From NCBI GenBank assembly GCA_020831585.1, contig JAFIGE010000032.1, positions 1 to 40,046 on the forward strand: 40,046 nt of DNA, given 5' to 3'. Shown here piece after piece: positions 21,642 to 23,896 of this stretch. Source of the stretch: Opitutales bacterium. GTDB taxonomy: Bacteria; Verrucomicrobiota; Verrucomicrobiia; Opitutales; Oceanipulchritudinaceae. How positions within the stretch are numbered: the first letter of the stretch is position 1; each line of letters starts with the position of its first letter. A model generated the notes under the pieces. That model saw only the letters and a program-made list of their open reading frames with translations, made no database searches and was not told the DNA's origin. The position numbers and the translations under genes are program-made.

Positions 21642-23396
21642 TCAGGCGCGCGCCGCCTTCACCAAATGCTCAAAAATCCGCCGCTGCACCGCGAGCGTCG
21701 GAAGATACTCCGGGTGCCACTGCACGCCCAAAACGAAGCCCGCCGCCGGCACCTCGATGGCCTGCACCACCCCGGCCTCATCGCGCGCGGCCACCGCCAC
21801 CCCCTCGCCGAGGCGGTCGACCGCCTGCTTGTGGAGGCTGTTCACGCGCGTCGTGGCGCGGCCCAGCATGTCCCGTAAGCGCGAACCCTCCGCCACCTCA
21901 ATGCGCTTGCGCGGCTTCAGCGAATCGGGATTTCCCCGCTCCCCGTAAAACCCGTGCAGCTCCCCATGCAGCGAGCCCCCGAAATGCACATTGATGTACT
22001 GCGCGCCCCGGCAAATTCCAAGAACGGGCCAATCCTTTTCCAGCGCCGCCCGCAGACAGCGCTCTTCAAACGCATCCCGCGCCAGATCCGTCCCCGGCGC
22101 GCTCAGGGAGAAAAACCGCCGGAAAAGAAAGAAGAAGGGCGCAAGCAAAAAGGCTGCGCGGCGCTGCTTCTCTTCCCGGGGCGGTTTATCCGGTTGCGCA
22201 AAAATCTCCCGCAGAGGAATCCCCGCGCGGGTCGGCTCAATATCCGCCCCTCCGCCAAGGATAAGGCCCTGCAACGGGGGCAACGGGGTCCCTTCTCCAA
22301 ACCGCCCCGGGCGCAACCGCCGTGGACGCCCCCCGGCGCGCCAGACCGCCCAAGCCGTGCACACCCAGGCGGGAAATCCCCCCCGGGCCGGACCCGTGAT
22401 GCCAATAACCGGTCGACGGGCCCTCATTCGCCCCCCCCTCCAGCGCGCCAACCAAGCCCGCAGACGCGCCCGCCACGGATGCCGCAAACGGAAACGCTCC
22501 CGCTTCACCGCCCGGGCCAGCTCCGCTTCATCCGCTGCCAACGCTTCCACCCGGCACCACACCGCCCACTCCCGCCCCAGCGTCCAGGCAGGATCGTCGA
22601 TCCGGCAGTCCGGCAACCGGTAGTGCAGCGTCGGGCGTGCGCTGATCTTCTCCTTCGGCAAAGCCGCTCGCACGCGCGCATAGTCCACCTCCGCAAAAAT
22701 CGGCAGCAGGTCCAGCGGACGGTTCCGCGTCGGGTTCTCCGCCAAATAGTCGTCGATCAGCTCCGTCATCGATGGCGCGTAGTCCGCATCCAATACCCGC
22801 CGCACATATTTCTTCGGAAACGGATCGATAAACGGGCTGATCCGCCGGGCAGCATCCACCCCATGTGCCCGCCGCAACTCCCCATAGAGCGACAGAAAAG
22901 CCCGCAGATACCGAAGTATCCACCCGGCCTCCACCGCCGGCAGCTCCGGATTAAAGTGCAGCCCGAAGGCATTGTAAACCGACGCCCCCGTGCCCTCCGA
23001 TTCCGGCGCGAGGGCTGCCCGCACCGCCTCCAACTCCGGCAGCCGCCCCACCTCCAGGGGCGAAAAAACCACCTCAAAGGGCACAAACCGCCGTGCCTCC
23101 GTCGCCAAAATCCGCTCCACGGTGTCATCCAGATCCGCCTTGAGCTTGTTCAGCTGCAGCCCCTCCAGAAACCCCCGCAGCTTGAACTCCGTGAAAAGCA
23201 CCGCGTCCAGCTCCACCTTCACATCCCCCACCGCTGTCTCCCGCAGCTTCACCGCATACCGGCTAGTGCGCTCCACCTCGCCCCCCACAACCCCGCGCAC
23301 CCGCCTCACGATCTCCTCCAAATCCAAGCCCCCCAGCTCCAGCTCCACCCCCACCCGGCGCGGCCCACCGTCTCGTTTGATCCATGCAACTTCCAT
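21642..23396 (-). CDS. Amidoligase / class-I glutamine amidotransferase-like hydrolase fusion
   Basis: The product has 584 residues from ATG 23396. The N-terminal half (about 1-310) resembles putative amidoligases of the glutamate-cysteine ligase fold: the beta-strand motif GVELE (16-20) and GLHFNPE (145-151), which fits the family's conserved GxH block. The C-terminal half (324-584) is a class-I glutamine amidotransferase fold of the gamma-glutamyl-GABA hydrolase (C26) type: GLILGGGADIEP, nucleophile Cys462 in GICRGAQYIN, and His561-Pro-Glu563 in QWHPEY. Separate genes for these two enzymes are often neighbours in bacteria; here they are one chain. A hydrophobic run (AAFLLAPFFFLFRRFF, about 414-429) is inserted in the hydrolase half. 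The likely job is formation and cleavage, or ammonia-dependent formation, of an amide bond on a peptide or gamma-glutamyl compound; the substrate is unknown. Confidence 0.8.
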   Translation of the reverse strand: MEVAWIKRDGGPRRVGVELELGGLDLEEIVRRVRGVVGGEVERTSRYAVKLRETAVGDVKVELDAVLFTEFKLRGFLEGLQLNKLKADLDDTVERILATEARRFVPFEVVFSPLEVGRLPELEAVRAALAPESEGTGASVYNAFGLHFNPELPAVEAGWILRYLRAFLSLYGELRRAHGVDAARRISPFIDPFPKKYVRRVLDADYAPSMTELIDDYLAENPTRNRPLDLLPIFAEVDYARVRAALPKEKISARPTLHYRLPDCRIDDPAWTLGREWAVWCRVEALAADEAELARAVKRERFRLRHPWRARLRAWLARWRGGRMRARRPVIGITGPARGGFPAWVCTAWAVWRAGGRPRRLRPGRFGEGTPLPPLQGLILGGGADIEPTRAGIPLREIFAQPDKPPREEKQRRAAFLLAPFFFLFRRFFSLSAPGTDLARDAFEERCLRAALEKDWPVLGICRGAQYINVHFGGSLHGELHGFYGERGNPDSLKPRKRIEVAEGSRLRDMLGRATTRVNSLHKQAVDRLGEGVAVAARDEAGVVQAIEVPAAGFVLGVQWHPEYLPTLAVQRRIFEHLVKAARA

Positions 23397-23731
23397 AATG
23401 CTCCATCCACACCCTACCACACTTCCACCCCCCATTTCCAGAAAACCTCAAAACGTCCCCAAACCGGCCTCATCCCCATCGCCCTCCCCCCAAAGCAAGG
23501 CCCTCCGAACCCGCCATACCCTTCCGATGCCCACCCTCCTCCGCCTGCGTCAATTATATTTACGCGGTTTATAACATTCACGCGGTTTATAACATTCGCT
23601 CGCATACGGTCTTGTGATATATCTCTACACACACACCTCGCCCATCCGGCCGGATCGGCATGCAAGCAATTCTACCGTGTTTACGTTTGCTGCTGTTTGT
23701 CCGCAGGGGGAGTGGGTGCGGCGGATGGGGA
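23397..23731. other. Spacer between amidoligase fusion gene and small charged-protein gene
   Basis: The left part (23397-23550) is strikingly C-rich on the + strand and shows no gene. The middle is AT-rich and contains the 18-bp tandem repeat listed separately. The right part (23600-23731) has no recognisable element. Promoters for the leftward amidoligase gene should lie here, but I could not pick a convincing one. Confidence 0.4.
23562..23597. repeat. Perfect 18-bp tandem direct repeat, two copies
   Basis: ACGCGGTTTATAACATTC occurs at 23562-23579 and again, without a gap, at 23580-23597. Each copy contains a TATAAC hexamer, a plausible -10-like sequence. It lies 166-201 bp upstream of the amidoligase fusion start. 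Tandem operator, duplicated promoter element or simple replication slippage are all possible. Confidence 0.7.
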
Positions 23732-23896
23732 TCAGGAGCGTTCGGTGGCTTTGCGGGCCTTTTTGGTATCGAAGTGCTCGGCTTCCTTCTTTTCGCGGAG
23801 GGCGGCTTTTTTTTCTTCCGGTAGTTGGTCGAACTGGCGCTGGGCGGCGAGGGCGTCTTTTTTGAGATTTTCCTTATGTTTGCTGGAGTCTGTCAT
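23732..23896 (-). CDS. Small highly charged hypothetical protein
   Basis: The product has 54 residues from ATG 23896 and is very rich in Lys, Glu, Asp and Ala (KHKENLKKDALAAQRQF, then LPEEKKAALREKKEAEHF). It is predicted to be almost wholly helical and soluble, with no cysteine, no signal peptide and no aromatic core, so probably an extended helix or coiled coil. The frame continues upstream to 23971, but that segment looks non-coding. No clear ribosome site is visible. It is divergent from rho across about 330 bp. I do not recognise the family. Confidence 0.5.
   Translation of the reverse strand: MTDSSKHKENLKKDALAAQRQFDQLPEEKKAALREKKEAEHFDTKKARKATERS

Follow-up and report, generated by a model that had tools for sequence, protein, structure and literature searches.

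An amidoligase and a C26 hydrolase read as one chain in an Opitutales bacterium: most likely an ordinary two-gene module whose apparent fusion rests on one base

The minus strand of the window, by which we mean the whole 40,046-base stretch of an Opitutales bacterium that was analysed, carries an open reading frame (ORF) that joins an amidoligase domain to a hydrolase domain (Table 1). The ORF is single-copy in its genome, the assembly of which comprises 5.28 Mb in 262 contigs and is 98.5% complete. With the start chosen in the first-pass annotation, the ATG at 23396, it encodes 584 amino acids; started from an alternative ATG further upstream, at 23435, the product would have 597. The matches of most relatives start at about residue 6-10. 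The first-pass annotation had described a fused double enzyme. The ORF and both of its domains are borne out, but the reading as one chain hangs on a single base at the border between the two halves.

Table 1. Features of the amidoligase-hydrolase locus (positions in the window) and the relative loci with a VTT-domain gene
Feature	Position	Strand	Basis or remark
Whole ORF	21642-23396	minus	584 aa, both domains, without interruption
Gene 1, Amidoligase_2 half	22429-23396	minus	residues 1-322 as read; PF12224, fold, conservation
Gene 2, Peptidase_C26 / class-I GATase-like hydrolase, 261 aa	21642-22427	minus	PF07722, PF00117, triad
G8 homopolymer at the gene border	22431-22438	minus	8 G, fused; 7 G, separate
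ATGA, in which the gene 2 ATG (22425-22427) overlaps an out-of-frame TGA (22424-22426)	22424-22427	minus	direct reading
GGAGG, likely gene 2 ribosome-binding site, running into the G8 tract	22437-22441	minus	motif read directly, role presumed
Basic/hydrophobic segment, fused residues 412-432	22101-22163	minus	insertion; low-confidence modelled helix
VTT-domain gene at L025, L037, L038, L045, L049, L057, L058, L059, L064, L076, L081, L088, L093			

Against Pfam, each half lies far above the cut-off. The N-terminal half matches Amidoligase_2 (PF12224) over residues 12-280 (E 5.5e-50; 171 bits against a cut-off of 22), covering model positions 2-243 of 245, so its earlier assignment to the amidoligases did not founder on the profile; both of the amidoligase motifs named at that time, GVELE and GLHFNPE, are present in the ORF. 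An alignment of 56 sequences has 20 invariant columns. The first joint alignment (A1) misplaced the C-terminal halves and was dropped for A4. Throughout the 84-sequence conservation set, made up of the window and 83 relatives, E108, N149, R184, R224, N225, D229, R254, H258, Y259, and R260 are invariant; R13, G16, E18, and E20 occur in 82 of the 84, the other two rows beginning after that part, and D64 is also among the conserved positions of gene 1.

The AlphaFold2 model of gene 1 (pLDDT 89.6, pTM 0.87) suggests that the amidoligase half has a glutamine-synthetase fold, with a best Z of 12.9. When the Foldseek candidates were re-ranked by Z, all 50 rows shown were glutamine synthetases or GmaS (Z 10.9-12.9, rmsd 2.9-4.3, 169-200 residues aligned). 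By itself, Foldseek returned nothing for gene 1 at E <=0.001: the best E was 0.056, and its top rows, 1tt4 and 1r8g (E 0.056 and 0.062), are presumably YbdK-type (GCS2-like) proteins, a likeness that is weak, whereas the Z ranking favours glutamine synthetase-type chains. The search for solved relatives of this half by sequence returned at best a fibronectin/fibrinogen binding protein (E 0.0051), a doubtful match that was not accepted. Passages in two articles mention amidoligases in phages or prophages (PMC10945688; PMC11318856). With regard to a phage origin, the amidoligase half was unmatched among 50,697 phage records (E 1e-3), and PHROG matches were confined to the hydrolase half.

The C-terminal half belongs to the peptidase C26 family. 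Peptidase_C26 (PF07722) matches residues 436-563 (E 6.7e-39; 134.3 bits against a cut-off of 20.5), and the Cys-His-Glu triad that had been called intact, Cys462, His561, and Glu563, is identical in all 84 aligned sequences, the window included. The class-I glutamine amidotransferase (GATase) model PF00117 gives a weaker match (E 3.3e-12; 46.9 bits). Among the NCBIfam models, the PuuD equivalog PRK11366 (gamma-glutamyl-GABA hydrolase) ranks first with 69.3 bits, and because this is far below its cut-off of 266 we do not call gene 2 PuuD. Its nearest solved chains are 7d4r, 7d53, and 7d50, titled probable glutamine amidotransferase and which we take to be Pseudomonas SpuA, followed by PuuD (6vtv).

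It appears that these hydrolases come in two forms. The distance from the GGGAD loop to the RD..E helix is 60-75 residues in 44 of 84 hydrolases, among them the window and four family relatives, and 10-40 residues, mostly 32, in the remaining 40 (the value of 10 is that of L058, whose matched part is short). The long form carries an insertion of about 35 residues beside the active-site loop. This extra stretch, RRAAFLLAPFFFLFRRFF in the window, has a basic and hydrophobic character in the 56 sequences inspected and is perhaps a membrane dock. On the tree of the amidoligase half the long or short label can be explained by 3 changes, whereas shuffled labels take 28.5 on average, and therefore the two partners have mostly travelled as matched pairs. 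The insertion, the presence of which tracks the amidoligase tree, is possibly new.

The coding strand at the junction between the halves reads TTG GCG CGC TGG AGG GGG GGG CGA ATG AGG. We worked out the reading frame for tract lengths of 5 to 11 G: a tract of 8 G yields the single ORF of 584 amino acids, and a tract of 7 G yields a gene 1 product of 323 amino acids that ends in ...ARWRGGE at the TGA of the ATGA. The 7-G reading leaves a 37-residue tail after A287, as against 36 residues in L002, the nearest relative; the median among the 44 long-form sequences is 39. Gene 2 has its own ATG with GGAGG upstream and therefore could be started in either reading; with these signals it presumably remains translatable. 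The retained ATGA alone is weak evidence, because an ATG will be followed by A about one time in four by chance. No other G/C run in the window reaches a length of 8. A first-order Markov model of the window expects about 4 runs of at least this length, so that a run of 8 is not remarkable in itself.

The arrangement in relatives is that of two genes. In the family and order set (55 genomes, the window genome included), both halves occur in four other genomes, G002, G006, G009, and G013, always as two adjacent matches, and a search of the family only (17 genomes) returned the same four. The ATGA overlap is present in all four, with gene borders of CGATGACG in G006, GCATGAGG in G013 and G009, and GCATGAAG in G002, none of which contains such a tract. 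In a wider contig search, at least 573 of at least 590 stretches encoded a relative, and the best 80 of these were used; together with L002-L005 they form 84 relative loci, 83 of them distinct since L002 and L022 are the same place. L022, from an Opitutales bacterium, is the closest relative with a name and shares its junction with family member G006. A sequence-level check found a single ORF over both halves in none of the 84: the genes lie in different frames in 80 and in the same frame with a stop between them in 4. A C26-type gene adjoins the amidoligase gene at every one of these loci, a set that is biased towards pairs and silent on solitary genes because the two-part protein was the query. 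At six Balneolota loci (L154, L155, L156, L158, L159, and L160) the genes lie in one frame with a single stop between them, and at L155 and L160 this stop runs into a TAGGAGG ribosome-binding site.

Broader surveys point in the same direction. Matches were found in 94 of 387 genomes of the phylum, the amidoligase half being covered only by the matches of the window genome and G002, and, for the class that includes a Marinobacter (G428), in 18 of 369 genomes; some matches may be missed in both surveys because at most three candidates were scored per genome. At the level of order, matches were found in 6 of 194 genomes for that of a Pontibacter (G429) and in 67 of 128 for that of a Balneolaceae genome (G432). 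Besides the window, none of these surveys (387, 369, 194, and 128 genomes) contained a stop-free match over both halves. The Balneolota genome G1120 was considered as a second fusion on account of an equal open-frame value of 661 for its halves, but three in-frame stops lie between them. The genes are separate at all 11 junctions fetched from the 128-genome survey, G1120 and ten others; two of the 11 appear to repeat contigs in the 84-locus set. Hence, a survey of how often the fusion occurs, which the first-pass annotation had suggested, has yielded no second case (0/84 loci and 0/11 junctions), and the arrangement that it cited as already known, separate neighbouring genes, is the one seen at all 84 loci and all 11 junctions.

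Since the fused frame depends on one base, the ATGA overlap is found in four relatives, and none of the 84 loci is fused, the locus is most likely an ordinary two-gene module of a known kind, and its apparent fusion rests on one base. The fused frame would have arisen through a one-base change in tract length, whether by an assembly error, by a fixed slip, or in a variable tract. With regard to the first of these, 18 G/C runs of 8 or more were counted in a sample of the same assembly (20 stretches plus the window; 338,361 bases including 2,694 N). A Pfam scan of ten ORFs that cross such runs gave two informative cases, a polyphosphate kinase and a BacA protein, in each of which the domain match contains a run of 8 and the frame is kept on both sides of it. 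The assembly is thus not generally wrong at such runs, and assembly error as the sole explanation is not upheld. Elsewhere in the same genome (L142:19363-19373), an 11-C run near the 3' end of a 3-dehydroquinate synthase gene is a possible length-variable tract.

A special case of the one-base explanation is that the tract is switchable, with a mixture of cells carrying 7 or 8 G, or slippage during transcription, giving rise to both forms of the protein. The position of the tract exactly on the gene border, as the only run of its kind in the window, would fit such a switch. There are also parallels elsewhere: tract-controlled merging of neighbouring genes is proposed for Helicobacter canadensis HCAN_0660/0661 in a passage of one article (PMC2823697) and described for gonococcal NGK_1211/1212 and meningococcal pglB2 in a passage of another (PMC5320596). 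As those passages present HCAN_0660/0661 and NGK_1211/1212, whether one protein or two are made depends on a homopolymer or repeat towards the end of the first gene. However, unlike these two systems, the window tract is known from one assembled sequence; moreover, G/C runs of at least this length are no rarity in a genome so rich in G+C (18 per 338 kb, with about 4 per 40 kb given by the model), and the four family relatives lack a tract at the same place. We regard a switch as rather unlikely.

We find it quite improbable that the Opitutales bacterium possesses a true, fixed bifunctional enzyme in which one chain coordinates two active sites. It is the case that the ORF is open across 584 codons in the assembly and that the two other in-domain runs of 8 are in frame in the same assembly. 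Against this stand the lack of a second case among the 84 loci or in the 369-, 194-, and 128-genome surveys, the retention of the start signals of gene 2, and a chain that contains no linker beyond two whole proteins. The whole-chain model (mean pLDDT 80.2) reaches a pTM of only 0.67, and its pLDDT falls below 50 at the junction (residues 321-325) as well as at residues 67-89, 399-407, and 420-434. Taken together, the dependence on one base of the G8 tract, the ATGA lying one frame off, and the low pLDDT of the junction give no sign of an evolved linker or a rigid pairing. The model lends a rigid joined enzyme no support and would be compatible with a complex of two separate proteins. It had been argued that holding both sites in a single chain implies channelling or editing; with the genes separate at 84/84 loci and 11/11 junctions, and a fusion that amounts to one base, that argument finds no support.

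What the two-gene module might do is suggested by comparison with E. coli. Glutamine synthetase-type ligases activate a carboxylate with ATP and couple it with ammonia or an amine. In E. coli, PuuA is a gamma-glutamylputrescine synthetase and PuuD a gamma-glutamyl-GABA hydrolase, and between them they make and break one amide in putrescine use. The pair described here resembles PuuA-PuuD in combining a ligase of glutamine-synthetase fold with a C26 hydrolase. Unlike PuuA, gene 1 is small and divergent, with a fold seen by fold comparison only; unlike PuuD, gene 2 is below the PRK11366 cut-off; and, in further contrast to that system, a polyamine gene was not found among the six neighbour ORFs scanned. 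We propose that the pair was ancestrally translated as overlapping ATGA genes for a glutamine-synthetase-fold, ATP-dependent amidoligase and a C26 gamma-glutamyl-type hydrolase. The gene 1 product would activate a carboxylate, probably a gamma-glutamyl one, with ATP and join it to an amine, and the gene 2 product would later remove the same acyl group, so that the pair would make and break one amide. Pointing to this role of the hydrolase are the higher score of the C26 model compared with the GATase model (134.3 vs 46.9 bits), the choice of PuuD as the best NCBIfam model, and its presence among the nearest solved chains.

Alternatively, gene 2 may encode a glutaminase supplying the amidoligase with ammonia in the style of a two-subunit amidotransferase, so that a carboxylate would be amidated. 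The class-I GATase match, the adjacency of the genes in the loci examined, the way in which the hydrolase subtype follows the amidoligase tree, the glutamine-synthetase fold of gene 1, and the titles of the nearest solved chains all agree with ammonia supply, but the C26 model fits much better and the PuuD chain is among the nearest solved structures. This alternative, which concerns the mechanism only, we consider possible though on the unlikely side. For the mechanism by itself, we lean slightly towards an ATP-dependent formation of a gamma-glutamyl-type amide by gene 1 and its removal by gene 2. As a joint explanation, a two-gene module with a one-base fused frame that makes and breaks an amide accounts best for the locus, and we think it probable. 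In a more elaborate scheme, an amide make-and-break cycle at the membrane surface would be run by two proteins or by one, depending on the length of G8 at the gene 2 ribosome-binding site; the basic/hydrophobic insertion beside the active-site loop would dock the hydrolase on the membrane, and this docked form would have co-evolved with a matching amidoligase. We think this scheme very unlikely.

The neighbourhood of the pair in the window gives few hints about the substrate. A gene for a CitM/SLC13-type transporter converges on one side and a Rho-like gene diverges on the other. The six neighbour ORFs scanned comprise the CitM/SLC13-type transporter with TrkA_C, an M50 peptidase, a sigma-54 response regulator, the Rho-like factor (with a Rho_RNA_bind match that falls short of the Pfam cut-off), HisF, and one without a match. 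They include no known pathway gene for such enzymes, in keeping with the first-pass annotation, and a look for further conserved neighbours of the pair near the window yielded none. Upstream of gene 1 on the minus strand, two exact copies of a 17-base sequence (AATGTTATAAACCGCGT) lie one base apart (23562-23596), and a small lysine- and glutamate-rich ORF of 54 residues, read by eye, occupies 23732-23896 on the same strand, upstream of the pair.

In 13 of the 84 relative loci, all titled gammaproteobacterial, a gene family recurs that codes for a VTT domain, by a Pfam match in the one member scanned (L081), and presumably for a DedA-like membrane protein; it is absent in the family of the window. 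Among the 12 of these genes whose distance was taken, 11 follow the pair at no more than about 210 bases and one lies 2.2 kb away. Clusters of neighbours in Marinobacter (TamB, LexA, SulA, and others) were considered as an operon context and seem to reflect no more than inheritance of gene order; because genes were called there by a simple longest-ORF rule, weak clusters may have escaped notice. A gene for a GlnE-type glutamine synthetase adenylyltransferase is located downstream of the pair at L026, L028, L036, L042, and L066 (Wenzhouxiangella/Lysobacteraceae), for instance at L028:7777-10329, the one tested with Pfam, and its position may likewise be inherited gene order.

The two families are not strangers to each other. 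Iyer and colleagues reportedly predicted in 2009 that Amidoligase_2 (PF12224) is paired with a GATase-like thiol peptidase. The locus described here has the same two families in adjacent genes; it departs from that pairing in that the frames are joined by one base, whereas the relatives examined have two genes. Our literature search, conducted largely without full texts, found no paper on the substrate of the bacterial pair. An apparent bifunctional enzyme leaves the list of curiosities, or waits there for the reads, and a fusion that is seen in one genome and at a homopolymer needs checking against relatives. What takes its place is the clear anatomy of a two-gene module found in several phyla, with a ligase of probable glutamine-synthetase fold and a C26 hydrolase whose two subtypes follow the ligase tree. 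With a VTT-domain gene downstream of the pair in some gammaproteobacteria, this anatomy would make the substrate testable in culturable bacteria.
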